Below, one piece after another: positions 3,019-23,585 of a stretch of 27,536 bases of DNA. Numbering within the stretch: position 1 is the stretch's first letter; each line of letters starts with the position of its first letter. The notes beneath the pieces were generated by a model that had not been told where the DNA came from, did not search any database, and was given only the letters and a program-made list of their open reading frames with translations. Made by a program: the position numbers and the translations under genes. The stretch covers positions 1-27,536 of IMG/VR virus record IMGVR_UViG_3300033887_000020, one strand, 5' to 3'. This stretch comes from a virus.

Positions 3019-3621
3019 TTACTTCCGCATCCGCCCGCCATCCCGGTTCCTGCCGTCTTCGCGGTTGCTGGCGTCACGCGACAGCGCATCAAAGAAAAAG
3101 GCTCCCTGGTACTTCTCTCGCGGCCTATTGTCATTCTCGCGCATCGCGAACCTTGCGAAATCCCGCTGCGACTCGCGCATGGGAGGAACGAATCTTCTTT
3201 CCCCGTCCTTCCCGATGATGTAGCCGCCCTGCTGCATGACCTGCCGAAGCTCCGCGCGGTTGTGCCTGGTCACGATCTCGCTCTGCATTTCCTTGCCAAT
3301 CCGGGCTCGCTCCCACTTCTCGCGATGCTCCCGGTCGATCTCGCGCTCCACCTGCCGCTTCTGCCATGTTTCCCGAAGCTCTATCCTCTCACATCCCTCC
3401 GGGATAAGCGCATCCTTCTGACCTGGAAGACCATAGGTCCCGTCCGGGCGCTTGTACACCACCAGCGTTTCGAGATAGTCCCGTGGTGAAAAAGCCACGT
3501 AAATGCGTGGTGATTCTGCACCACACTCCGGGCACGGCTGCGGTTTTTCGCAGTCGTCCATCTTGGCGAACTTCTCGAACCGACCGTGTTCCTGGCAGTC
3601 AAAGTCGTAAAGAATTGGCAT
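3019..3621 (-). CDS. FmdB-like zinc-ribbon protein with charged C-terminal region, 200 aa
   Basis: The start ATG at 3621 shares one base with the large-terminase stop (TGATG). The N-terminus, MPILYDFDCQEHGRFEKF followed by CPECG at residues 30-34, matches the small FmdB-type zinc ribbon (M-P-I-Y-x-F/Y-x-C...C-x-x-C-G). Here the first ligand pair is C9-x2-H12 rather than C-x2-C. After about residue 100 the protein becomes a highly charged helix rich in Arg/Glu (QKRQVEREIDREHREKWER), ending in an Arg/Asp/Asn-rich tail. Such proteins are recurrent between terminase and portal in some phages, but their role is not established. A zinc-dependent packaging or regulatory cofactor is inference. Confidence 0.65.
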   Translation of the reverse strand: MPILYDFDCQEHGRFEKFAKMDDCEKPQPCPECGAESPRIYVAFSPRDYLETLVVYKRPDGTYGLPGQKDALIPEGCERIELRETWQKRQVEREIDREHREKWERARIGKEMQSEIVTRHNRAELRQVMQQGGYIIGKDGERRFVPPMRESQRDFARFAMRENDNRPREKYQGAFFFDALSRDASNREDGRNRDGGRMRK

Positions 3622-5873
3622 CAGCCTTCGTCCTCCCAGCTCGCGCCCATTGCTCCCGGATGAACACCCACGGCTGCGCCCGCGAACGCCTCCCTGAGCG
3701 TCGGCGCGCCGCCATTCGCTAGTTGCTGCGGGCTCACGGTCGGAGGCGCGTAATCGTCTCCACCGAGTACTTCACGATACATGGGCGACGCCTCCTGCTC
3801 CCGCTGCTTCCGCAAATAGCTGATCGACTGCGCTTTACCGCTGATCTCCATTATGTGCAGCGACACCCAGATTATGCCCAGGGCCATGTAGCGATCGTCG
3901 TGCTGGCCGGATTCGGCGCGCGCCGCCTGCATCCCTTCGTCTCTGTGTAGCGCCTGCATTTCTTCAACGAACCGGGGTGAGTTGATATCGATCTCGCCGT
4001 CTCGCAGGGCCTTAATCGTGTAATCGATCACCATCGCGCGGCTCCAGCGATTCGTAACGAAACCCAGCCGCGTAGCGGTCGAAGGGTCGATCTTCTTTCG
4101 ATCCGTCCGCACCCAGTTGTGGAAGTTCGCCCAGCCCCGCTTTCGCAGTTCGAGCTGCGTAATTTCGCCGTTGAAATTGACCTCAATCGCCATTCTCGGC
4201 TGTTGATGACTCGCGCCCTGGTAAAACAACCCAACACAGTGACAAATGGACACGAAATCGGCCGCATTTATATACTCGCTGGCAAATTCGCACACCTGAA
4301 TATCGTTGTGCTCGAATGTTCCTTTACACAGTCCTTCGAGTACGGTGCGATCCTGGCCCACTCCGTCTCCCGTATCCACTCCGAAGCCGTAGGTTTCTCC
4401 GTATCGCGGCCACTGGAATACCATCAATTTCCCGGTCGGGTCGCCCGTCTGCCAACCGGGCCACTTGAGCGGCACCATCTGATACGGCCCCACGTCGATT
4501 ATTTTCCTGGTGGTGTCGCGATCATGCTCGTCGGCTTGTAATCGGGCCGGCAAAAGATGGATCGGCCCGCGGAATCCGAATACCCCTAGCGGCTCCTGGC
4601 AGTGCGTGTTGTAGGAGGAAAGCGTATCCACGTCGAACACGCTCTCGCCCGATGCGATGAACGATTCGAGATCGTCCGATGCAAATTCCCGAAGGAAGCG
4701 CGCCGTGTCTTTCTTTGAGGCGTAGTCTTCCTTGGTGATCTGCCAGAACCACATCTGCTCAAGCGGCATCTCCCAGTTCTCGGGATAGTGTCGTCGCAGC
4801 AGCTTGTCGGCCCGCACGAACTTTTTAGCGCGGCTTGCGTGTCCGATCGTCTCGCCGTTGGGATGCCAGCCCCGTTCCTTGAGTTTTAGCCGGACGGCCT
4901 CGTGGACCGCTGCCGGGTCCTCCGTGCTCATCTCCAGCTTGAAGGATCTTTTGAGCTGCGTCGGAGTCGGATAGAAGTTGAACGCCACAAACCACGGCAG
5001 GAACCCCGGCCTGAACTTGGCTTCGCCCTGCCAGTAGTGGCTCTTGCAGCGATTCCAGGTCTTGTACCACCAGCCGTAAGGCCCTTCACCGGTAGACTCC
5101 AGGATCACGATCTTGCTGGGATCTTCGTGAACCGCAGGCACCAGACCGGCGTCGATTAAGTCTTCTGCATTCAAATACGAAGCGACCTCCGAGAGGTGGA
5201 CGCAATCTGGGGTATTTCCGCGCCCGATGTCGTATTTCTGGGCGCCGTGCTGAACAATCAGCTTCGAATTGAGTTCCCCGAACTCCATGCGGGTTCCCAT
5301 CCGGTCCCGCGTCATCTCAGGCTTGAGCCAGTAGGGAATCCAGTCGTAAAGCTGCTTGTACTTGTCCACCATGTCCTTCGACCGCTCTTTGTCGGAGGAA
5401 CCCGTCAAGGCGATGACATTGGGGAAGAACAGGGTCCGGTGCCCGATCACAACCTGGGAGTCCGTGGTGATTCCGCACTGGCGGCCCTTCAGCCACATCA
5501 TCATGATCGCCCAGCCCATGTCTTCGAGCTCTGAGCGCGCGTCGTTCACCACGAGCTGCGCGATGTTCGGCGAATAGTGAATCACTTCGCTTTTGGCTAA
5601 GATCTTGGCGTAGCGCGTCGCAAAGTACAAGTAATCGACCTGGCTCAGGTACTTCTCGTTCTCAATCCACTTGACCTCTTCCCGGGTAAAGAGCATTCGG
5701 GGAGTACTTGGGGTGTAGGGCGGCTCACCGTACTGTTCCTTGTACCGCTGAAGCTTGTCGTCAAAGTGCGCGGCCGCTTCGTCGCAGGCTTCGACGGAAT
5801 GGTAGACCAGCTCGTAGCCGAGGTCTTCTTCCGCGACCTTCAGCCCTAACTCTACGCTCTTGCGGCTGTACAT
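3621..5873 (-). CDS. terL: Terminase large subunit (ATPase and nuclease), 750 aa
   Basis: This is the motor that pumps DNA into the prohead and cuts it. The ATPase domain has a terminase-type Walker A, KGRQCGITT (residues 129-137), a Walker B-type segment VHLSEVA (about 225-231) with its acidic residue, and a coupling motif ILESTGEG (257-264). The C-terminal RNase H-like nuclease is seen as YGFGVDTGDGVGQDRT (495-510, D500 and D503), IEVNFNG (563-569) and GQHDDRYMALGIIW (656-669, D659/D660). The N-terminal ~100 residues form an extra helical region. It is longer than many TerL proteins. The next gene overlaps by one base. Confidence 0.95.
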   Translation of the reverse strand: MYSRKSVELGLKVAEEDLGYELVYHSVEACDEAAAHFDDKLQRYKEQYGEPPYTPSTPRMLFTREEVKWIENEKYLSQVDYLYFATRYAKILAKSEVIHYSPNIAQLVVNDARSELEDMGWAIMMMWLKGRQCGITTDSQVVIGHRTLFFPNVIALTGSSDKERSKDMVDKYKQLYDWIPYWLKPEMTRDRMGTRMEFGELNSKLIVQHGAQKYDIGRGNTPDCVHLSEVASYLNAEDLIDAGLVPAVHEDPSKIVILESTGEGPYGWWYKTWNRCKSHYWQGEAKFRPGFLPWFVAFNFYPTPTQLKRSFKLEMSTEDPAAVHEAVRLKLKERGWHPNGETIGHASRAKKFVRADKLLRRHYPENWEMPLEQMWFWQITKEDYASKKDTARFLREFASDDLESFIASGESVFDVDTLSSYNTHCQEPLGVFGFRGPIHLLPARLQADEHDRDTTRKIIDVGPYQMVPLKWPGWQTGDPTGKLMVFQWPRYGETYGFGVDTGDGVGQDRTVLEGLCKGTFEHNDIQVCEFASEYINAADFVSICHCVGLFYQGASHQQPRMAIEVNFNGEITQLELRKRGWANFHNWVRTDRKKIDPSTATRLGFVTNRWSRAMVIDYTIKALRDGEIDINSPRFVEEMQALHRDEGMQAARAESGQHDDRYMALGIIWVSLHIMEISGKAQSISYLRKQREQEASPMYREVLGGDDYAPPTVSPQQLANGGAPTLREAFAGAAVGVHPGAMGASWEDEG

Positions 5874-5882
5874 GAGCCCAGT

Positions 5883-6530
5883 TTAGCTGCTCTCAACCTT
5901 GGCAGGAATAGCCCGAAGCTTCGCGGCCATGTTCCTGATCCCGGTTTCAAATGATGGCAGTTCGATTCCGGCCGATTCCGCAAAGGATTCGGACTTGGCG
6001 ACCGCGTTGTTCTGGTTGGTCACCGAAACATTCACCCCGCCGCCGCGCTTCTTTGCGCCCGCCACTTCCATGAACAGGCTCCGGTCGTTGTGCCCGAAGG
6101 CGGGCATCGAGGCGCTTTCGGCCATCGCCAGGGCCACTTCATGCGCCCGCCCTGCGATCACCGCGCCAATCTGGATCTGGGCCACGTCGAAGTGATACCG
6201 GTGCAGGACGCGCGCGCAAGCCCCAAAGACGACGGATCTGTTCACCCCGGCGCGCTCGCAGACCAGATCGAGAGACGGCGTATCGCCCTTTCCAGGGATA
6301 TGAGTCTTTCCCTTGAAGACCTTGTCGGCGACCTTGATGAACTTCACCATGTCATCTTCCCCGCGAAGAAGTTCTACCATGCGCCGCCGGGAGTCTGCGA
6401 CCGATTCCAAATCCGTCTTGATGAGCTTCACCAGGCCGTCGATCGATCCATCGAACGTCGCCGGAGGCGGGGGAAGCATCACCTCCTTGTGTTCGGGGAT
6501 TTTCTGGATTTCCTTCGGTTTGCGCTTCAT
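5883..6530 (-). CDS. Probable terminase small subunit, 215 aa
   Basis: The start ATG at 6530 overlaps the stop of the preceding HTH gene as ATGA, and the stop is 9 nt before the large terminase. After a Pro-rich N-terminus (MLPPPPATF) come helical segments, including a possible DNA-binding helix-turn-helix around LDLVCERAGVNRSVVFGA (about residues 86-103), then Ala-rich helices and a Gly/Asn-rich linker (GGGVNVSVTNQNN). Small terminases recognise viral DNA through such HTH domains and form rings. The assignment rests on position and size; no family signature is decisive. Confidence 0.55.
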   Translation of the reverse strand: MKRKPKEIQKIPEHKEVMLPPPPATFDGSIDGLVKLIKTDLESVADSRRRMVELLRGEDDMVKFIKVADKVFKGKTHIPGKGDTPSLDLVCERAGVNRSVVFGACARVLHRYHFDVAQIQIGAVIAGRAHEVALAMAESASMPAFGHNDRSLFMEVAGAKKRGGGVNVSVTNQNNAVAKSESFAESAGIELPSFETGIRNMAAKLRAIPAKVESS

Positions 6531-6907
6531 GCGATTCCTTGGCGCTTCAGAATCCTCAGCACCGTTCCAGGGTTCCAGTTTTCCTTCTGGTACCGGGTCA
6601 TGAAGCCGTGCCGCTCCATTCCCTCCGCGATCAGCCGGAAGGAAATTCCCTTCTTTCTCTGTTGGATCATGAACTCCAGCGCCTCTTTTTCCTTCGGGTA
6701 GTTCGGATGTTCGGCGAACGGAATCATTCCCTCCCGCCCTTTGTACTTGGCGCGGGCCTCGCGCATCCGCGCCATCGCCATGCGATTGCCTTCCCGGAGC
6801 GTGATGTTCACCACCTCATCGACCAGCTTGTTCACTTTGTCGGTGAGCTGCTTTCGAAGTTCGTCCACGAATTCGATGTTGCCACATCCCGCAACGATGT
6901 GCAACAC
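6527..6907 (-). CDS. HTH protein resembling the recombinase-type helix-turn-helix, 126 aa
   Basis: The only start giving the full frame is a GTG at 6907; another GTG lies at the codon for Val14. The second half reads YPKEKEALEFMIQQRKKG, then ISFRLIAEGMERHG, then NWNPGTVLRILKRQG. This is the G-x-S-x-x-x-I-A-x-x-L/M ... W-x-x-x-x-V-x-x-I-L pattern seen in DNA-binding parts of serine recombinases and related phage proteins. No catalytic domain is present. It overlaps the probable small terminase by ATGA, so it may assist packaging-site recognition or regulate the late operon. Its start faces the plus-strand gene at 6915 only 7 nt away. Confidence 0.6.
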   Translation of the reverse strand: MLHIVAGCGNIEFVDELRKQLTDKVNKLVDEVVNITLREGNRMAMARMREARAKYKGREGMIPFAEHPNYPKEKEALEFMIQQRKKGISFRLIAEGMERHGFMTRYQKENWNPGTVLRILKRQGIA

Positions 6908-7563: not shown

Positions 7564-10500
7564 TTACGGCACCCCCACCACTTGCATCAAGCTCGACGTA
7601 ATGAGTCCAGCCGCGTTCTTGCGATCCACGATGTAGTACATCTCGTGCTGCGAGAGCCCAGGGATGTCGATCTCGCAGGTAGTCGAGCATGCCGTCCACG
7701 TTTGCGTTTCGCTCAGGTATGCGAATGGCGCCGATCCAGGTTGCGGCGGAAGCGCTCCGGTCGATGTAGCCGTCGCGCATACTTCCTGCCGAGACGTGCA
7801 GTAGAGGCTTGGGTTATAGCCGAATCTGATCCGGAACGATACGCCGCTGACACCACCGAGCTTAACCGGAACCGCAACGAAGGTCGAGCGATTAACGGAG
7901 TCCGTAGCTGGCCATGGCGGTAGCTGAATCGCTACGATGTCCTTGCGCACACCCTCTTTCCAGAAGACGTTGCCCAATATCCACGTGCCGTCCACCATTC
8001 CGTGCCAGTTCCAGTAGTTTGGAGTTACCCCTGGACCATTAAAAGCGTAACCGAGAGTCTGCCATAGATTTGCATTCGGGTCATTTTGGCCCCATTGATA
8101 TCGAGTTGCTTGTGCCGTGTAATTTGGAGCTGACGCGAGGCATGGGGCATTGCGGTCAGGCGCGGCACCATAGCAAATCCCGCCCGTGTCCGCGTTCGGC
8201 ACGACCACATAACGATTCCCGGCAGATGATCCACTGCGACATTCCCCCGCGTTATAGGCGTAGCAGAACGTATACGGATTAGAATCAGAGATTGACGACG
8301 ACGGCCCACTGATATCTGTGAGTAGAAATCGTCCAGCCCAGCCCTGCCACGTGAGTTGTTTTGGATATGCCGTGTCAAGGCATGCCCCTCCTGAGCTAGC
8401 GGAAGGGCAGGTGATTTGATAAGTATTGGTTTGTCCAGAAACAAGTGTCAGCGTGTGATACCAGAGCTGAATATCGAAACTCCCGCCACCCGCGCCGCCC
8501 CATGGCCTGCCATCATAGGCAAGACTCGGTGGCGTAGCGAGATACGCCTGACCTCCGGGGTGAGACTGTATGGCCGTGCCAATGCTGGTCCCGAATGCAT
8601 TCGTTACGATTCCAGCAAACGGATATACCATATTCATACCGTAGGTATAGTCGCTACTGATGACGGTCGGTAGAGAGCCATGGCGCGCACCATAAGAATT
8701 GTAATTGTTGTATCCACCTGAGATCGGCCCAGCAAAATAAGCCCCAAACTGAATTAAGTTTGTGCCGGTATTGTCTGATTGCCCAATGAAGGTGTGGCCC
8801 GTATCGAGGTTAGAGGGATCGCTGTAAATAGACGTTGGAGCGCTCTTTTGGACCCAGTAAATAATGCCATCACACTGTGCCGTGGCCTGCAAGTTAGGAG
8901 TCCAGCCATTGCTGTGTGCAGTCGGAGCAGATGCGCAAAGCTGGTTCACCCCGCGCGCGATGACGAGAGTAATTGAAGAGCACCCAGAACCAGATTTTGC
9001 CGCGACTAGGAATTGCTCTCCATATAAACCGTTAGCTCCGTCCAGAAGATAATCTCCAGGTTGAATCGTCTGTAGTTGTGCAGCACCAGCGACACATGCG
9101 CTCGGCCATTGCGCTTGGTCCCCGCTGCTAATGTTCCAACTAGCGAACGTCCCTGAGCCATTTACGCTAGTAACGTTGATTGCGAGCGTAGTTCCCGAAT
9201 AACTAGTTACGGTGCCATCCATCCAATCTAGGCCATTAGAGGCGTAAGCGGCGATAATCGGATCGCCAGCGACAAAGCTCTTGCCAGAGGCTACCGTGAA
9301 CGTCTGCGAGCCGGTTCCAATCGTAATTGACGTTGTAGAAGTAGTAACATATCCGCTTCCGAAAGTACCGGGCGTAGCGTTCTGCGGCTCATACGGAATC
9401 ACCATCTGAATGCAGTTATTCCCAGCAGCGCCAAGAGCATAATACGGACTCGACATTGAGATGCCGAGAGTCTGACAATTCTGGGTTGTCGGATCGGTGG
9501 AAACATTACCAGTCAAAACTGTAGTTGATGTCTCTCCGGTGATCGATGTGATCGACGGTGAATATTGTCCTATCCCGACCTGTGTTGCGGAATTTAACGG
9601 AGTTGTAAAGAAATGTGCCCATCCACCCGAAGTATCAGATGAAAATCCCCCATGCGCTCCCGTCCATCGCATCGGGTAGGTGGACCATGTGTTCATGCAG
9701 GCGACAATCTGGGACCCGGCCGACCGTGTGATATCAGCCCAACATCCATATGCAAGACCATTTTGAGTCTGTGCCTTAACCGTAAAGGCTATGTAGTTTC
9801 CGCTAAGATTATTTATCGAAACGCTATTGAAGTACTTCGGATTGAATCCGGAAACGATATTTGCCACCTGCTGTAAGATAGTCGTGCCGGATGTTGTATT
9901 GGTGCAGGTAGTTCCTGGACCGGAGGTTGTATAGGAAAGCGTGGTATAGTAGTTCGGCACGATAGCCGCGTAATTGTAACTGCTCGCATTGTACGTACAG
10001 GAATATAAATTACCATCCGCCCCATAAGCCCACCAATTATTTGGGTTGCTCGGGTTAAACATCCCCGTCGCCGTTACTTGATAGTTATTCCCATATGCTA
10101 TGAGCCTTGACTCTCCTGTCTGTGGAATAAATAGCCAGACTCCAGGGTTTCCGTATGAATCGGTAAGGGAGCACATTCGGCCTTGTTCGGCTGGGATCAG
10201 CGCAGTCACACCATCCGCCTGATAATTTACTGTCACCGTGGTAACCGAGCAGAAATTCGCCGTGCCGTCGTCACCAACGTCGAAGCCAGCAGACCCAGCG
10301 AATAAGTAAGTCATGTTCTGGAGATCCGCCGTCCCTGAACCGGAGTTCCAGACTAATACTCCAAAGTTGGTCATGGCGAATGCGGTCGAGCCCATTGTCG
10401 CGCCTGTGGTATGGGCATAGCCCGTTGCGGTACATCCGCTGAAGGTTGAGCCGCTAAGCGTACTGCAATACACTGTCTCCGGGGATGAATCCTGAAACGA

Positions 10501-11823
10501 AACAGAGTATGCGCCGCCAACCGGAGGATCAACGTCCATAACCCGAATGAATCCCGTAGCGGAAGATACAACAAAAGTCGTCACGCCACTCGATATAGAT
10601 CCATTCAGAGTGGTTGAGAAGCCTGTATATGAGCCGAGATTTTGGTTAAGCGTTAATGTAGTATTATTTATTAATGCAGAGATCGTACACTCATTATTTG
10701 TGCATGTCGGGGATGACCCAGCGATGAAAATATGGTCCCCCGATACTGTCGATAGGGGGAAGAAAGTCGAGGCTCCTCCGAGATTCGAAACGAGAGTGAC
10801 CGTCGTGCCGCTGATCGAAACCGTGCCGCTAAAATTGGTTAACTCCTCGGCTGTTATCTTCGGGTTCCCCCATGGACCGAACGGTGGCTGATAGGTGAAC
10901 TGACCCGAGGTCGGAGTGGTTCCACCTGGCGATCCGGTAGGTGTCGGTGGAATTACGACTGCGGCGGCTGACCCAGAGCCATTGGGCAATGCTACAGAAA
11001 GATTATTGCCGACGCAAACCCGATTTACCGCGAGACATGTCGAGATTTGGCCGCCAGCACCCGACGCATATGCCGACCCGAACTTGATTTGCAAATCGTC
11101 CGTGGAGCCGTTCGTGGCGAATCCAGGACGAATGATCTGATCAAGTGGAATAAAAAGGGCATTGGCCGATCCAGTTGAAGATGTACTCGCATATCCGGAT
11201 GATCCAAGAATATTCGCTGGATTCGTCCATGCCGAAGCAATATCCGTTACAAGTCTAGCTGACGACACCGTACTATAATAGCCAACGCCAGGGCTGCTCT
11301 GTCCCGGACCCGTGACTCGCTTAATCATCATTCCAGTAATCGGATCGATATACTGATCTCCCTGATTTGTCCAGTCGAAGGCGGGCCACGGATAATTACC
11401 CCAATTCGTGGAGTTCGCTGGAGTAAGCCACGCGGAACTATTCCCGAGCGCCGGTATTCCGGTCGTGAAATTGATCGATCCGGAATCCGATCCGGCCGTC
11501 AGTGTCAACGTATGAAGCGTTGCCACTTGAAGCGCCCAGTTCGCTCCCAGCACAAGAGTCTTGCAGCCATTCGGCCCAATGATGGTACTCGCTCGATCCG
11601 TGTCGATATTGCTGTTCGAAAAGATACTCGTGTTGATGTCGTTCGGCGTGTATGTCGTAAGCTGCCCGGTCGGGGACGCCGTGAGCGTAATCGTCACGGC
11701 CGACGCCTCGCAGTACTGGAACGCCACCTGCGTCGGCGTCTTCGAGTTTCTGACCTCGGTGATCGTGATCGTGGCGGCTTGCACAACCACACAGCACGCC
11801 GCAAGTAATATAAGTGATTTCAT
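7564..11823 (-). CDS. Very large secreted beta-rich protein, 1419 aa (surface or appendage protein)
   Basis: The ATG at 11823 begins a signal peptide MKSLILLAACCVVVQA with an AxA-like cleavage site. The LAAC at residues 7-10 fits a lipobox by letters but sits too early and inside the hydrophobic core. The next ~45 residues (ITITEVRNSKTPTQVAFQY) look like an Ig/Fn3-type strand set. The middle ~1,000 residues are Gly/Ser/Thr/Asn-rich beta repeats with many Cys. The C-terminus (SGVSFRIRFGYNPSLYC ... CEIDIPGLSQHEMYYIVDRK) again looks Fn3-like. No catalytic motif is recognised. The gene is visibly more A+T-rich than its neighbours, suggesting separate acquisition. It lacks a clear ribosome-binding site. 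An adhesin or receptor-contact role is inferred. Confidence 0.75.
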   Translation of the reverse strand: MKSLILLAACCVVVQAATITITEVRNSKTPTQVAFQYCEASAVTITLTASPTGQLTTYTPNDINTSIFSNSNIDTDRASTIIGPNGCKTLVLGANWALQVATLHTLTLTAGSDSGSINFTTGIPALGNSSAWLTPANSTNWGNYPWPAFDWTNQGDQYIDPITGMMIKRVTGPGQSSPGVGYYSTVSSARLVTDIASAWTNPANILGSSGYASTSSTGSANALFIPLDQIIRPGFATNGSTDDLQIKFGSAYASGAGGQISTCLAVNRVCVGNNLSVALPNGSGSAAAVVIPPTPTGSPGGTTPTSGQFTYQPPFGPWGNPKITAEELTNFSGTVSISGTTVTLVSNLGGASTFFPLSTVSGDHIFIAGSSPTCTNNECTISALINNTTLTLNQNLGSYTGFSTTLNGSISSGVTTFVVSSATGFIRVMDVDPPVGGAYSVSFQDSSPETVYCSTLSGSTFSGCTATGYAHTTGATMGSTAFAMTNFGVLVWNSGSGTADLQNMTYLFAGSAGFDVGDDGTANFCSVTTVTVNYQADGVTALIPAEQGRMCSLTDSYGNPGVWLFIPQTGESRLIAYGNNYQVTATGMFNPSNPNNWWAYGADGNLYSCTYNASSYNYAAIVPNYYTTLSYTTSGPGTTCTNTTSGTTILQQVANIVSGFNPKYFNSVSINNLSGNYIAFTVKAQTQNGLAYGCWADITRSAGSQIVACMNTWSTYPMRWTGAHGGFSSDTSGGWAHFFTTPLNSATQVGIGQYSPSITSITGETSTTVLTGNVSTDPTTQNCQTLGISMSSPYYALGAAGNNCIQMVIPYEPQNATPGTFGSGYVTTSTTSITIGTGSQTFTVASGKSFVAGDPIIAAYASNGLDWMDGTVTSYSGTTLAINVTSVNGSGTFASWNISSGDQAQWPSACVAGAAQLQTIQPGDYLLDGANGLYGEQFLVAAKSGSGCSSITLVIARGVNQLCASAPTAHSNGWTPNLQATAQCDGIIYWVQKSAPTSIYSDPSNLDTGHTFIGQSDNTGTNLIQFGAYFAGPISGGYNNYNSYGARHGSLPTVISSDYTYGMNMVYPFAGIVTNAFGTSIGTAIQSHPGGQAYLATPPSLAYDGRPWGGAGGGSFDIQLWYHTLTLVSGQTNTYQITCPSASSGGACLDTAYPKQLTWQGWAGRFLLTDISGPSSSISDSNPYTFCYAYNAGECRSGSSAGNRYVVVPNADTGGICYGAAPDRNAPCLASAPNYTAQATRYQWGQNDPNANLWQTLGYAFNGPGVTPNYWNWHGMVDGTWILGNVFWKEGVRKDIVAIQLPPWPATDSVNRSTFVAVPVKLGGVSGVSFRIRFGYNPSLYCTSRQEVCATATSTGALPPQPGSAPFAYLSETQTWTACSTTCEIDIPGLSQHEMYYIVDRKNAAGLITSSLMQVVGVP

Positions 11824-13374: not shown

Positions 13375-16298
13375 TAGTACCAGCTCCCCGCTGGGCCGGA
13401 GCAGTTGAGTGTCAGCTTGGCGTTGTTCGAGAGATTGTAAGTCGCGGGTATATTCCCGCCTCCGCCCACCATGATTGCTCCCGCTCCCAGCGTGTTCACT
13501 AGCGTGACCGTCTGCCAGATACTCAGGCATGGGCTGATCGTGGTGACGGTTCCCGTCGATCCTAACGCCACTACCGGCGCCCCGAGCCACGTCGTCAACG
13601 TCCCGCCCGATTCCGTAATCGAAGGCCAGGGCGAAGTATTTATCCTGATGGCGTCGATTCTCCAGTTCTGCGCGACACTGGTAACTACGATTGGCGGCGT
13701 GGCCGTACCCAGTCCCGAGTTGTCTGAAAACTCTGCATTTACAAGGGTCCACCAGATCGCTTGATGCGCCGTCGAAACCTGATGTATCCCGTACAGCGCC
13801 ATGTGGTCGCAATAGACCTGGGTCAGCATGACCTCGTTGACTGCATTCGAGGTCGCATCTCCCACGATGCACGATTCCACCACGCCCGCGTCGTGCATCC
13901 AGTTATCGATCTGGGTGCCGGTCGCATACGCCATGTACAGCGACGCACTTCCCGCGGCGTATGTGCCCGTGGTTTTGTCTGTGCTCGTGTGGACATGCGA
14001 AAAATGCGCGTCTGCGGCAAGGTAGACTCCCCGGTAGGCAAACCAGATATCGATCCAATCCCCTTTGCAGTTGTACGATTCGCAGTCGATGCCGACGTAA
14101 GCCGATCTGGTTCCGTTGACTCCGATCGACACATTTTGCACATTGAATCCGTCTTGAGACGAACTGGCGTAGAACATCGCGCCCGACGTCATATCCCCGG
14201 AATTCGGATAGATGCTGAAATTTGAGAACGTTGGGCTGATATCGCCGCCATCCGCCGTTACCGTAACGACGTTACCGGAGTTGAAGTACAACTTGATCGC
14301 GGTCCCATACGCTGCGCCGCAACCGATAAACCCCGGGTGGTCCGCCGGTGGGTTATACGGGCCGTACCAATTGACTCCCCCACATTGAACTTTGACCTGT
14401 TGCGTGGGGTTGGCGTTCGCGGCTTCCTGGAGCCCAGAGGTCGCGCTCTGTATCGTCCATGCGCCGGAGTGGTTATTCACCGTGGTGAAGATTACGGTTC
14501 CTGTGCTGTTACCAGCCACGCAGGTGCCTCCGGCGATTAAAACCGATTCGGCGGTCCCCGTGCCGCCGGAGACGTAGAGGTAGTGTCCGGTATCCGCGCC
14601 GTTCACTCCGCCGGGGCAGGGCGTGAGGGTCACTGTCGCGGCGATAGTCGCTGTCAACGTCCCTCCCGGAGCCTGCGCCGAGAAATTGTACGTCGCCGCA
14701 TAGATCGTCTGGCTCGTTCCGGTGGCGATGGTATTGCAGCCATAACCCGAGCCGAGCGTCCAGATCAGAGCGTCATTGGGCGCGGAGCAGGACGGGATAT
14801 TTACTGCGGTGGGCACGCCGGAGGACGTCAGGCTCGCGATTGTCTGATTAGCGGCGTTCATCGGATTGACCATGCCGCCGGTGCCGCCCACGATTCGTAT
14901 GAGAGCCGGCGCAATGGAATAATAGATCGTTATATCTCCGGTCGTCGGGTTGACTGTCTGTTTCATCGGCTCATACTCAGCCGGATTCGAGGTGGAGTTG
15001 AGAGCCTGCGCCCAAGCATAAATGCCCTGGCCGTGATTGCTCGCCAGGATGGCGCCGCCGCTCGCGGGAATCGTCGCCGGGCATCCTGAAGCGCACAGCA
15101 GATAAGGCACGGCTCCGGCGCCGCCGGCTCCGGAGGTGCAGTTGGCGTTTCCGTTGGCCTGAATTCCGGTGGATAAGGGCGTCCCGCCGGAGCACTGGGT
15201 AGGAGTGGCGGATAGCGCCGTCGCGGTCGCCGCGTTTCCGGTGGTGTTCTGGTTGAGTGTCGGGAAGTTGGTCAGCAGCGCGGCGCTGACGGCCGGAAGC
15301 TGGGCAGAACCGGTTAGCTGCACGAGGTTGCCGGCGGCGGTTCCCACGGTGTAGGAAGTCAGCCACGCGGAACCGGAGGAGTTGGGGACCCCGGCTCCGG
15401 GATAGACCATACCACCACCGCCGCCGATCGCGGCGCAGCCGGTCGCGTTTCCATTCGCCAGAATTCCAGTAGGCGCGTATCCGGTTGAGCAGAGGCTTGG
15501 GGAAGAGGCCAGGGCCGAAGCGGTAGCGGCGTTTCCCAGATAGCCTCCGGCGGCCGGGATCTGACCCGATCCATTCAACTGAAGCAGGTTGTTCGCGGAA
15601 GTTCCCACGGTGTAAGGGAAGGTCGCATACCAATCCGCAGCCAGGCCGCAGCCGCTGGAATTGGCGCACTGATACTGCTTGGGGGTGGCCCCGGATGTCT
15701 GGCACAGGCTCAGATATGCTCCTGTGGTGTTTCCGGGGTTACCGGCGCACTGGACGACCGATCCTCCGCCGCCGCCGCTGGAGATCTGGACCCAGGTACC
15801 GGCGCCCCCGATAGTCGATCCTTCGCAGGACCACTGCGCGAGAGTCGATACGACGATCTGGAGTCCGAGCGTTTGACCGACCGTGCAGGAGCCGTTGGGC
15901 GCGGTGGTGACGTACAGGATCTGCGGCTGAACCGAGGGGAGGGAGCTGGTGATTCCGGGTCCTGCTTCCTGGACATCGTAGGTTCCATTGTCCACGTAGA
16001 AGAACCAGTACCCGTTGGTCGAGTTTTCGGGAGCCTGGCCCACGGTGAACGGGTTTGAGAGGGGGGTTCCGCTATTGTCCTGGTAGAGATTGGCTTTGGT
16101 TCCTCCCGATCCGGTGATGAAGACGGTTACGGTGCAGTTGGTGTAGGACGCCATCAGCGGCATCGCGGGATTGGAGGGAACCCCGGCGACGGTGATGGTC
16201 CGGCCGCCTTGCGTACAGAATCCCCAGACTCGTTCGCGCGCGAACATAACGCCGGGAGCGAGGCACGCGAACAGGAGGAACCGGGATAGAATTTTCAT
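13374..16298 (-). CDS. Secreted tail-fibre/tailspike-like protein, 974 aa
   Basis: It starts with a signal peptide (MKILSRFLLFACLAPGVMFA). Residues 129-172 (SCTVG ... IVVSTLAQWSCEG ... GTW) are shared with the gene upstream. Two internal copies of a fibre module follow, about 229-288 and 316-387, each with YTVGT-x-A-x-NL-x-QL-x-GS-x-Q-x-PA, then GNAATA-x-AL, then GI-x-ANGNA-x-x-C. The region around 640-900 (FSNFSIYPNSGD, FNVQNVSIGV, AYVGIDCESYNCKGDW, DIWFAYRGVYL) looks like a right-handed beta-helix of the tailspike/pectate-lyase type, which often binds or cleaves polysaccharide. No catalytic residues can be assigned. Two pieces of this gene (15385-15440, 16111-16134) recur at 22420-22498. 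Confidence 0.75.
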   Translation of the reverse strand: MKILSRFLLFACLAPGVMFARERVWGFCTQGGRTITVAGVPSNPAMPLMASYTNCTVTVFITGSGGTKANLYQDNSGTPLSNPFTVGQAPENSTNGYWFFYVDNGTYDVQEAGPGITSSLPSVQPQILYVTTAPNGSCTVGQTLGLQIVVSTLAQWSCEGSTIGGAGTWVQISSGGGGGSVVQCAGNPGNTTGAYLSLCQTSGATPKQYQCANSSGCGLAADWYATFPYTVGTSANNLLQLNGSGQIPAAGGYLGNAATASALASSPSLCSTGYAPTGILANGNATGCAAIGGGGGMVYPGAGVPNSSGSAWLTSYTVGTAAGNLVQLTGSAQLPAVSAALLTNFPTLNQNTTGNAATATALSATPTQCSGGTPLSTGIQANGNANCTSGAGGAGAVPYLLCASGCPATIPASGGAILASNHGQGIYAWAQALNSTSNPAEYEPMKQTVNPTTGDITIYYSIAPALIRIVGGTGGMVNPMNAANQTIASLTSSGVPTAVNIPSCSAPNDALIWTLGSGYGCNTIATGTSQTIYAATYNFSAQAPGGTLTATIAATVTLTPCPGGVNGADTGHYLYVSGGTGTAESVLIAGGTCVAGNSTGTVIFTTVNNHSGAWTIQSATSGLQEAANANPTQQVKVQCGGVNWYGPYNPPADHPGFIGCGAAYGTAIKLYFNSGNVVTVTADGGDISPTFSNFSIYPNSGDMTSGAMFYASSSQDGFNVQNVSIGVNGTRSAYVGIDCESYNCKGDWIDIWFAYRGVYLAADAHFSHVHTSTDKTTGTYAAGSASLYMAYATGTQIDNWMHDAGVVESCIVGDATSNAVNEVMLTQVYCDHMALYGIHQVSTAHQAIWWTLVNAEFSDNSGLGTATPPIVVTSVAQNWRIDAIRINTSPWPSITESGGTLTTWLGAPVVALGSTGTVTTISPCLSIWQTVTLVNTLGAGAIMVGGGGNIPATYNLSNNAKLTLNCSGPAGSWY

Positions 16299-19618: not shown

Positions 19619-19837
19619 ATGGATGAGCAACACACAACGCTGGCGGCAACAGCAAGCAGATCACGCTTATATAGAAAAGCTATGAAACACGCGAAACCAA
19701 CAATCTATCAGGCACTGTGTACCAAACTCGGACGCCAACCTACAAACGCGGAATTAAAAGCGGAAGTAACGCGAATCAAGCAAGATGCTGTTATCGAACT
19801 GGCACAAGCAGGCAAACTTCCACACCAAAAACGGTAA
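19619..19837 (+). CDS. Small helical protein, 72 aa, first gene of the early transcript
   Basis: The ATG at 19619 follows the early promoter directly, so translation is probably leaderless; an internal ATG at 19682 is an alternative start. The C-terminal two thirds (TIYQALCTKLGRQPTNAELKAEV ...) reads as a helix, a short turn with Pro, and a second helix with an NAELKAEV cap, a layout seen in small HTH-like phage proteins. No definite family is recognised. It contains one copy of the 21-bp direct repeat (19649-19669). Confidence 0.6.
   Translation: MDEQHTTLAATASRSRLYRKAMKHAKPTIYQALCTKLGRQPTNAELKAEVTRIKQDAVIELAQAGKLPHQKR
19649..19669 (+). repeat. 21-bp exact direct repeat, copy 1 (copy 2 at 20225-20245)
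   Basis: ACAGCAAGCAGATCACGCTT plus a final A occurs identically at 19649-19669 and 20225-20245, 576 bp apart, with immediate mismatches on both sides. The two copies are read in different frames (ATASRSRL here; QQADHA-stop in copy 2), so the match is at DNA level rather than from protein homology. The repeats bracket most of the first early gene and the whole 112-aa gene. Confidence 0.85.
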
Positions 19838-19907: not shown

Positions 19908-20246
19908 ATGGAAAACAACAAAATGTACCTGACAGAAACAGAAGCGAAAGCCAAAGGACTCGGGACGGTCCAGGAGCAGATTGACCGCTACAACGCGGCC
20001 CTGCCAAAGACCACCTACGTGCTGCGGGGGCTGGACGCCAACGGCAAGACGGCCTTCTATACCGGCAAGGCTGGCGAGGGATGGGTATCGCCAAACCGTG
20101 ACGCATCCTTCGGCTACGTCTCCCTGGAAGTGGCCCGCGGGAAGGCCAAGCTCTTTAATGGTCGCGTGTCGCTGACCGGACTCTGGTTTGTGGCCATCCC
20201 CTGGGAGGGCATGGGAACGTTTCCACAGCAAGCAGATCACGCTTAA
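19908..20246 (+). CDS. Hypothetical protein, 112 aa (FYTGKAG/WVS family-like)
   Basis: The frame extends upstream, but the ATG at 19908 has AGGAGA 10 nt ahead and gives a protein-like start MENNKMYLTETEAKAKG. The core TTYVLRGLDANGKTAFYTGKA, GEGWVSPNRDASFGYVSLEVARGKA, LFN resembles a recurrent small phage protein with Y-x-L-R, F-Y-T-G-K-A-G, W-V-S and A-x-x-Y/F-x-S-x-E-x-A-R-x-K-A. The function of that group is not known to me. Its last codons lie inside copy 2 of the 21-bp repeat, which supplies the stop. Confidence 0.7.
   Translation: MENNKMYLTETEAKAKGLGTVQEQIDRYNAALPKTTYVLRGLDANGKTAFYTGKAGEGWVSPNRDASFGYVSLEVARGKAKLFNGRVSLTGLWFVAIPWEGMGTFPQQADHA
20225..20245 (+). repeat. 21-bp exact direct repeat, copy 2
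   Basis: Identical to 19649-19669. This copy forms the 3' end of the 112-aa gene. Just downstream are three 10-bp tandem units (TTCTCCACTG twice, then TTCTCCTCAC, around 20265-20295) in the non-coding gap 20247-20430. Confidence 0.85.
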
Positions 20247-22126: not shown

Positions 22127-22251
22127 CCCTTCTGCTTAACGCCGCGCTGGCGCTCAAGGCCGCGGTGCTGTGGAACCCTGTGGCTTGGTGCTGCGCTGTT
22201 TACGTTATCTGGGCGCTGGTGCGTGGAGCTTTCGATAGGAGGAAATCATGA
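22123..22251 (+). CDS. Small membrane protein, 42 aa
   Basis: It is coupled to the RHH gene by ATGA at 22123. It encodes MTLLLNAALALKAAVLWNPV followed by AWCCAVYVIWALVRG and a basic tail (AFDRRKS). One or two hydrophobic stretches make it a membrane protein with the C-terminus probably cytoplasmic. It overlaps the next membrane gene by ATGA after a strong ribosome-binding site (TAGGAGG). The function is unknown; a holin-like or membrane-targeting role cannot be distinguished. Confidence 0.6.
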   Translation: MTLLLNAALALKAAVLWNPVAWCCAVYVIWALVRGAFDRRKS

Positions 22252-22481
22252 CGGTTGATGCTGCTACTGCGCTGGGTATAGTGATCGCGATTGTGTTTTT
22301 CAGCCTGGGTTTCGCGCTGGGCCATTGCAATGGCCGGTTGACTGAAATCGATGAACGCGCCCAGCGCGAGCGCATCGCCGGAAAGGATTCGAAGGGTGGC
22401 ACCTGGTGGGACGGCGACTGGGACCCCGGCTCCGGGATAGACCATACCACCACCGCCGCCGATCGCGGCGCAGCCCGGTGA
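22248..22481 (+). CDS. Membrane protein with W-x-G-G-x repeats, truncated by an insertion (77 aa remaining)
   Basis: The start ATG 22248 has AGGAGG upstream. Residues 8-27 (ALGIVIAIVFFSLGFALG) are a transmembrane segment, followed by a charged helix (RLTEIDERAQRERIAGKD). Then GGTWWDGDW begins W-x-G-G-x type repeats, which stop abruptly; the last 19 residues (DPGSGIDHTTTAADRG...) come from inserted DNA. Downstream, in another frame (22499-22552), three more WRGGD units and WQ are followed by a TGA that overlaps the next ATG as ATGA. Removing 80 bp restores one gene ending in that coupled stop. I therefore infer that the original protein carried about five repeats and this copy is frameshifted. 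Confidence 0.6.
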   Translation: MTVDAATALGIVIAIVFFSLGFALGHCNGRLTEIDERAQRERIAGKDSKGGTWWDGDWDPGSGIDHTTTAADRGAAR

Positions 22482-22498
22482 TGAAGACGGTTACGGTG
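22420..22498 (+). repeat. Chimeric copy of two fibre-gene segments inserted in a repeat array
   Basis: Bases 22420-22475 are identical to 15385-15440, and 22475-22498 are identical to 16111-16134, both in the same orientation and the same order. They are joined at a single shared C, with the 670 bp between the sources missing. The source gene (13374-16298) lies on the minus strand, so the copy is antisense to the genes around it. It corresponds to fibre residues about 287-304 (a Gly-rich hinge, IGGGGGMVYPGAG) and 55-62 (TVTVFIT). The insertion interrupts the W-x-G-G-x repeats of the membrane gene. Confidence 0.9.
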
Positions 22499-22546
22499 TG
22501 GCGGGGTGGCGACTGGCGGGGTGGCGACTGGCGGGGTGGCGACTGG
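22499..22546 (+). repeat. Orphaned W-x-G-G-x repeat units (three WRGGD plus W)
   Basis: Three perfect 15-bp units TGGCGGGGTGGCGAC and a partial fourth, now out of frame with the membrane gene upstream. Read from 22499 they give W-R-G-G-D three times and end WQ-stop at 22552. Their bases also supply G-rich sequence ahead of the ATG at 22549. Confidence 0.8.
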
Positions 22547-22548
22547 CA

Positions 22549-22917
22549 ATGACACCGGCTCCCGACAACGGATCGCCTGAATGGTGTAAGGCCCACGGCC
22601 TGCCCTACAGCAGACGGATGGACTGTGCTCTGGACGCATGCCCGAACTGCAAAGGATCGGGGTACACGATGGAATCGGGGGATGTTTATCCCGAGCTGAA
22701 AACCAAGTTTGTCTCGTGCCTGCTGTGCGAGAGCTCCGGTCGCGTGGACCCCGGCTGTAAATGCTTTATGGAGCACGGCGAAGTGGACCCGTGCAACTGC
22801 GAAGTGCCGGGCCACTGCCCACCCGACGACGTGGCGCAGCCGGAACCTGAATATCACGAACTGGAACCTGCTGACGTATTGGAGATTTACAAGACCGCGA
22901 CGGAGGATGAACCATGA
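22549..22917 (+). CDS. DnaJ-type zinc-finger-like protein, 122 aa
   Basis: The frame extends through the repeats, but the ATG at 22549 is chosen because it overlaps the ancestral upstream stop as ATGA and gives a natural start MTPAPDNGSPEWCKAHG. It has CPNCKGSG (about residues 31-38) and CLLCESSG (about 60-67), the two CxxCxGxG-type knuckles of a DnaJ-like zinc finger, plus further Cys (CKCF, CNCEV, CPP). The C-terminal 25 residues are acidic. No J domain is present. Small proteins of this sort are common in phage early regions, and their roles are largely unknown. The stop overlaps the next gene by ATGA. Confidence 0.65.
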   Translation: MTPAPDNGSPEWCKAHGLPYSRRMDCALDACPNCKGSGYTMESGDVYPELKTKFVSCLLCESSGRVDPGCKCFMEHGEVDPCNCEVPGHCPPDDVAQPEPEYHELEPADVLEIYKTATEDEP

Positions 22918-23585
22918 AAATTTCAGAATGGCCAAACGCTCCGCAATGGCTGCGTGACGCGAGAACCGAAAATGCCGATGTGGAAATCTCGGAATCGGGA
23001 TATGTGACCTGGCGGGGTGGCACCTGGCACGGTGGCTACTGGCACGGTGGCTACTGGCGGGGTGGCGACTGGCTGGGTGGCACCTGGTGGGGTGGCGACT
23101 GGCTGGGTGGCAACTGGCTGGGTGGCACCTGGCTGGGTGGCACCTGGCTGGTTGGCACCTGGCTGGGTGGCGACTGGCTGGGTGGCGACTGGTGGGGTGG
23201 CACCTGGCGGGGTGGCACCTGGCGGGGTGGCACCTGGCACGGTGGCGACTGGCTGGGTGGCGACTGGGGGGTTGGCACCTGGTGGGGTGGCACCTGGCGG
23301 GGTGGCACCTGGCACGGTGGCGACTGGTGGGGTGGCGACTGGCTGGGTGGCAAGGTCAATGAAATCGAAGGGGCAAAGGTCATTATCACCTTCGCGCACT
23401 GCGACGGCTGGCCTAAGACGCTTGTTGATGTCAACGGCGAGGCGTGGATACTCGCGGGATGCCGATGGTTCAACTTCGCCGATGCGCGAAAACACTGGGC
23501 CGGGCGCGAGGATCGCATCATGACTCGCGCGCTGCTGCACGGAGCCTATCACCTCGCGAAGCATATGGGGCTGAAATGCGAGTAA
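22914..23585 (+). CDS. W-x-G-G-x pentapeptide-repeat beta-solenoid-like protein, 223 aa
   Basis: The start ATG 22914 is coupled to the previous gene. Residues 1-32 form a short cap (MKISEWPNAPQWLRDART). Residues 33-147 are 23 perfect five-residue repeats W-x-G-G-x: position 2 is L, R, H, W or G and position 5 is T, D, Y, N or finally K; two units have V in place of the first G of the pair. Residues 148-223 form a non-repetitive cap with AWILAGCRWFNFADARKHW. Five-residue periodicity suggests a solenoid, but this is not the classical A(D/N)Lxx pentapeptide consensus. No enzymatic motif is visible. Display, binding or DNA-mimic roles are only speculation. Confidence 0.75.
   Translation: MKISEWPNAPQWLRDARTENADVEISESGYVTWRGGTWHGGYWHGGYWRGGDWLGGTWWGGDWLGGNWLGGTWLGGTWLVGTWLGGDWLGGDWWGGTWRGGTWRGGTWHGGDWLGGDWGVGTWWGGTWRGGTWHGGDWWGGDWLGGKVNEIEGAKVIITFAHCDGWPKTLVDVNGEAWILAGCRWFNFADARKHWAGREDRIMTRALLHGAYHLAKHMGLKCE
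23010..23354 (+). repeat. 23 x 15-bp tandem coding repeat
   Basis: The unit is TGG-NNN-GGT-GGC-NNC, without any indel across 345 bp. The Trp, Gly and Gly codons are the same almost everywhere (GGT becomes GTT in two units). Codon 2 is CTG, CGG, CAC, TGG or GGG, and codon 5 is ACC, GAC, TAC, AAC or AAG. Groups of neighbouring units recur, such as WW-WR-WH-WW/WL orders around 23190-23265 and 23280-23340, indicating duplication of multi-unit blocks. The array has no stop codon in several other frames, which creates long spurious ORFs on both strands. Confidence 0.95.

Follow-up and report, generated by a model that had tools for sequence, protein, structure and literature searches.

In the window, the whole 27,536-nucleotide stretch of an IMG/VR record from a virus that probably infects a soil bacterium, a gene for a small protein with an N-terminal hydrophobic segment followed by W-x-G-G-x repeats carries within its repeat tract (22394-22547) an 80-bp insert which corresponds to two segments of a putative fibre or tail protein gene read from the opposite strand (Table 1). 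The label 'fibre' is taken from the initial annotation, a reading of the sequence alone, and a search with the 974-aa protein gave no Pfam or PHROG family match; the location among the late genes and the Gly/Ser/Thr-rich make-up suggest a tail or surface protein. A large surface-type protein is also encoded at 7564-11823, and as the versions in contigs G002 and G003 are 66-72% identical while these contigs are otherwise 97-99% identical, the comparison marks this gene as a swapped module. The gene at 25582-26181 matches Siphovirus Gp157 (PF05565) and a PHROG named Mu Gam-like end protection, so that its product is possibly a DNA-end-binding protein.

Table 1. Positions of the insert, its target and its source (window coordinates).
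Feature	Position	Strand	Remarks
Insert, piece 1	22420..22475	+	Exact 56-bp copy of 15385-15440; present likewise in PLDF01000311.1
Insert, piece 2	22475..22498	+	Exact 24-bp copy of 16111-16134; initial 22 bp also in PLDF01000311.1, followed by an NN gap
Target gene (small repeat protein)	22248..22481	+	Encodes W-x-G-G-x repeats after a hydrophobic N-terminal segment; frame shifted by the insert
Downstream gene, cysteine-rich	22549..22917	+	Protein starts MTPAPDNGSPEW; ATG would formerly have overlapped the target-gene stop (ATGA)
Left target TGG	22419..22421	+	Second copy at 22499-22501, as a direct duplication of 3 bp or as microhomology
Right target TGG	22499..22501	+	Repeat tract resumes with TGGCGGGGTGGCGAC units up to 22547
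Source gene, putative fibre/tail protein, 974 aa	13374..16298	-	Intact; intact also in IMGVR 3300050017_000046 (99.5% DNA identity)
Source of piece 1	15385..15440	+	Exact matching
Source of piece 2	16111..16134	+	Exact matching

Two fibre-gene segments within a small repeat gene

Exact self-matching of the window recovers both pieces on the same strand as their sources and without a mismatch (56/56 and 24/24 identical bases), and piece 1 is antisense relative to the reading strand of the fibre gene. Between the two source segments 670 bp (15441-16110) are missing from the copy. These matches and the length of the lost interval are as the initial annotation had described them, and its overall picture of two colinear fibre-gene pieces that had been copied, fused and placed in a repeat tract, with the fibre gene as the source, stands as well. 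The base-to-base joining of the pieces needs a small correction, as C22475 is common to both and the source-derived total is 79 bp rather than 80. The 80-bp insert consists of 77-79 bases from the donor and of a TGG (or T) that the target contributed by duplication. Once the W-repeat arrays are set aside, the two matches are the longest repeats of the window. None of 100 dinucleotide shuffles produced an exact repeat of more than 19 bp, the longest being mostly of 14-15 bp, and the exact copies are therefore far beyond chance. No further close match to either piece is found elsewhere in the complete phage contig, and in this contig as in the MAG that holds it each piece occurs as the source and one copy only. 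A small mobile element such as a MITE or repeat element was rejected on this copy number and on the ends GGGACCCC and TTACGGTG, which are not inverted repeats; the predicted fold energy of the insert is ordinary (z 0.25).

Insertion into W-x-G-G-x repeats had been claimed and holds, but the array concerned is the short tail of the gene starting at 22248 and not the long array of the neighbouring gene. The latter array (23007-23350, in gene 22914-23585) is present with a few units only in the MAG contig, as either a collapse across repeats of 30 bp or a genuine difference in copy number would produce, and arrays of this type are found in 27 stretches of IMG/VR contigs. Upon removal of the 80 bp, the frame from 22248 runs on to ...GGTWWDGDWRGGDWRGGDWRGGDWQ* and its stop codon TGA (22550-22552) overlaps the ATG of the next gene (22549-22551). 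Because the W-R-G-G-D frame and the ATGA overlap are restored in this way, the insert is the derived state and the fibre gene the source; that the target is otherwise preserved would follow from the reading frame. In translation, the insert acts as a frameshift by which the last 16 aa (RGGDWRGGDWRGGDWQ) are swapped for 19 out-of-frame aa (DPGSGIDHTTTAADRGAAR), and the predicted small protein has consequently lost its final W-x-G-G-x repeats and possesses a truncated tail. No new function is evident for the predicted altered protein, and the insertion is probably non-functional.

A relative with the empty site was not encountered in peptide and DNA searches that included the flanking genes, and no gene that matches adjoins the recombinase of G004, a related 59-kb phage; contigs G001, G002, G003 and G006 from IMG/VR, which represent the same phage as the window, end short of the insertion site. 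The fibre gene, on the other hand, is intact also in PLDF01000311.1, and both source segments are in their normal places in IMGVR 3300050017_000046. An older fibre gene already fused in this manner was found neither in other IMG/VR contigs, where the 30-bp fused junction does not occur, nor among 396 genomes of the phylum of the MAG, which gave weak, GC-rich matches at chance level only.

The junctions in a second assembly

The insert is known from assembled contigs, and the initial annotation had named an assembly chimera as the main alternative. A search with the serine recombinase encoded near the site identified a 100% identical protein on PLDF01000311.1, a contig of the MAG Bryobacterales bacterium isolate palsa_243, which with 58,988 bp and a 150-bp terminal repeat represents the same phage and is probably its complete circular map. 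A TnpB-like protein with OrfB_IS605 and Cas12f1-like TNB domains is encoded on this contig at 12098-13225, at a distance of several kb from the gene of the serine recombinase. The contig differs from the window by four substituted bases across their common 27 kb, not counting N gaps and the repeat array. Three of these positions are covered by IMGVR 3300050017_000046, which sides with the window and not with the MAG at all three; this agreement hints at separate reads behind the two assemblies.

The left junction and the junction between the pieces are exactly identical in PLDF01000311.1, whereas the right junction coincides with a 2-N scaffold gap located 2 bp short of where piece 2 ends, at the start of the tandem repeats. 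Since the second assembly agrees at the left and internal joins, a chimeric molecule or an error of assembly that put fibre sequence into the repeat tract becomes unlikely for these two joins, while the third stands in the window opposite an NN gap. In its favour the MAG contig, which has two more such N gaps elsewhere, breaks or collapses within repeat tracts, and reads are possibly common to both assemblies. CLC was the assembler applied to bulk metagenomes from Stordalen in a related study (PMC6786970), and presumably also to the palsa_243 MAG. An artefact would, though, have had to create three junctions within 80 bp and to return exactly to its starting point, alike in two public contigs that differ at a few bases, and the empty version was assembled in neither of them. 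We consequently regard an artefact as unlikely.

Junction structure and possible routes to the insertion

The overlaps at the three junctions amount to 2 (GG), 1 (C) and 0 bp, a 3-bp TGG is found on both sides of the insert, and the flanks of source and target are unlike, with 5/15 and 6/15 identical bases. Gene conversion, which the initial annotation had offered together with template switching, finds no support in these flanks, and homologous recombination in general is excluded because donor and target share no flanking homology. Low overlap combined with a short duplication fits the joining of staggered ends. Of the characteristics of such joining, an intact donor, a copy of its sequence elsewhere and little or no homology at the junctions are observed. 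The copies are exact and keep their order and orientation, the frame is restored once the insert is taken out, and two of the three junctions (left and internal) recur in the second assembly. We infer a break closed by end-joining, and on balance lean towards a real, recent and probably one-off templated insertion at a staggered break.

In the proposed course of events, the donor would have been either a short piece of fibre-gene DNA that already lacked its internal 670 bp or two neighbouring scraps. A staggered break in the W-x-G-G-x tract of the 22248 gene would have taken it up and then been sealed by end-joining with almost no homology, and fill-in of the staggered ends would have given rise to the TGG duplication. 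Two independent captures in the same order and orientation less than 0.75 kb apart in a 58.8-kb genome have a chance of about 0.6%, and because of this low probability of coincidence a single donor with a 670-bp internal loss, or a local process, is favoured. A CCGGT stands at each end of the lost interval, the two being offset by one base, which is only weakly unusual (P about 0.04), and slippage at CCGGT across this interval is a possible origin of the loss. Genes for Ku and for LigD-type polymerase domains are present in the MAG, and the Bryobacterales organism, to which the phage contig was assigned by binning, would as the putative host have supplied Ku/LigD.

The main rival to end-joining is replication template switching, which is the part of the earlier proposal that stays alive. 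In this scenario a polymerase would have stalled within the G-rich 15-bp repeats, switched to the fibre gene to copy 56 bp, passed over 670 bp, copied a further 24 bp and then come back to its start point. The pieces are colinear and local, CCGGT is common to the ends of the jump within one base, and a tandem repeat tract is a target at which forks are likely to stall; moreover, junctions expected from this process would be much like those of end-joining. However, primed switches would be expected to leave longer overlaps than the 2, 1 and 0 bp seen here, and the return to the exact point of departure together with the 3-bp duplication is simpler under the model of a broken end. Template switching is thus considered possible but rather improbable.

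The colinearity of the pieces would also be explained by one RNA donor, whereby a host reverse transcriptase would have copied fibre mRNA and jumped 670 nt before the cDNA was joined into the break. The initial annotation had stated that the window lacks a reverse transcriptase, and a six-frame search of the MAG extends this to the full phage contig, which gave no RVT_1 match, although several reverse transcriptase genes are present on other contigs of the MAG. The predicted mRNA fold, on the other hand, keeps the ends of the jump apart (23% of random pairs are equally close), the lost interval has neither GT..AG nor group II intron ends, and the DNA bears no mark of an RNA origin, which makes cDNA capture highly improbable. 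An intron or spliced RNA was likewise rejected, as the lost interval is without intron-like ends and the predicted fold does not join them.

Other short duplications and likeness to known systems

Other short direct duplications are present in this phage. An exact 21-bp sequence is duplicated 576 bp apart (19649-19669 and 20225-20245) without flanking homology, the second copy providing the final codons and the stop of a gene, and this may reflect either another small capture or a binding site common to both places. On PLDF01000311.1 an exact 27-bp direct duplication (34216-34242 and 34445-34471) lies in one open frame, again without flanking homology; Markov shuffles as control for the phage contig gave at most 19 bp. 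With the same settings, clean short duplications were found in none of lambda, HK97 and a sampled 50 kb of Tunturi_1, but some were present in two other metagenome virus contigs (L060 and L070). The comparison set is a small sample of contigs not randomly chosen, and short repeats may be binding sites. In L060 (IMGVR 3300044801_000043) a 110-bp stretch at 6527-6636 consists of exact 97-bp and 31-bp matches to 3420-3516 and 5175-5205 that overlap by 18 bp, possibly another fragment-copy mosaic in a virus contig. As a lead only, the duplications point to recurrent capture of short fragments in this phage or its hosts, possibly with involvement of cDNA, a reading that appears unlikely.

With respect to known systems, a diversity-generating retroelement would share the link between a tail-fibre-type gene and a second copy of part of its sequence, while the copy resides here in another gene. 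This candidate was rejected, as no reverse transcriptase is encoded on the phage contig and the 79 bp show 0 mismatches and thus no adenine-specific changes. Bacterial short-patch double illegitimate recombination likewise places short stretches of a genome elsewhere within it via microhomology, but resident bases are replaced, whereas here bases were added on balance, none appears to have been lost and 3 bp are duplicated.

Closest in kind are templated insertions ('filler DNA') at double-strand breaks, described in yeast and human cells (PMC11724301, PMC8421209), which are alike in the short exact copies of distant sequence, the break-like point of insertion and the little overlap. In yeast, insertions at breaks involve end-joining and two or more fragments are found in 5-7% in certain mutants, while pairs of fragments that come from one locus and share an orientation are reported to be very rare (PMC11724301). 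Occasional two-fragment inserts are a further likeness; the differences are that the present insert is located in a bacteriophage, derives from two same-orientation fragments of one locus and has its break deduced. The fibre-scrap insert is an instance of this known kind, the templated insertion, which is unusual for a phage, and it gives the impression of a single accident and not of a functioning system.

The locus provides a natural record in which the donor, the target and the inferred empty site can be read, with a phage gene that gains a new, out-of-frame C-terminus from fragments of a second gene. Should captures of this kind be frequent among phages whose hosts perform end-joining, they would constitute a source of novelty distinct from homologous mosaicism.
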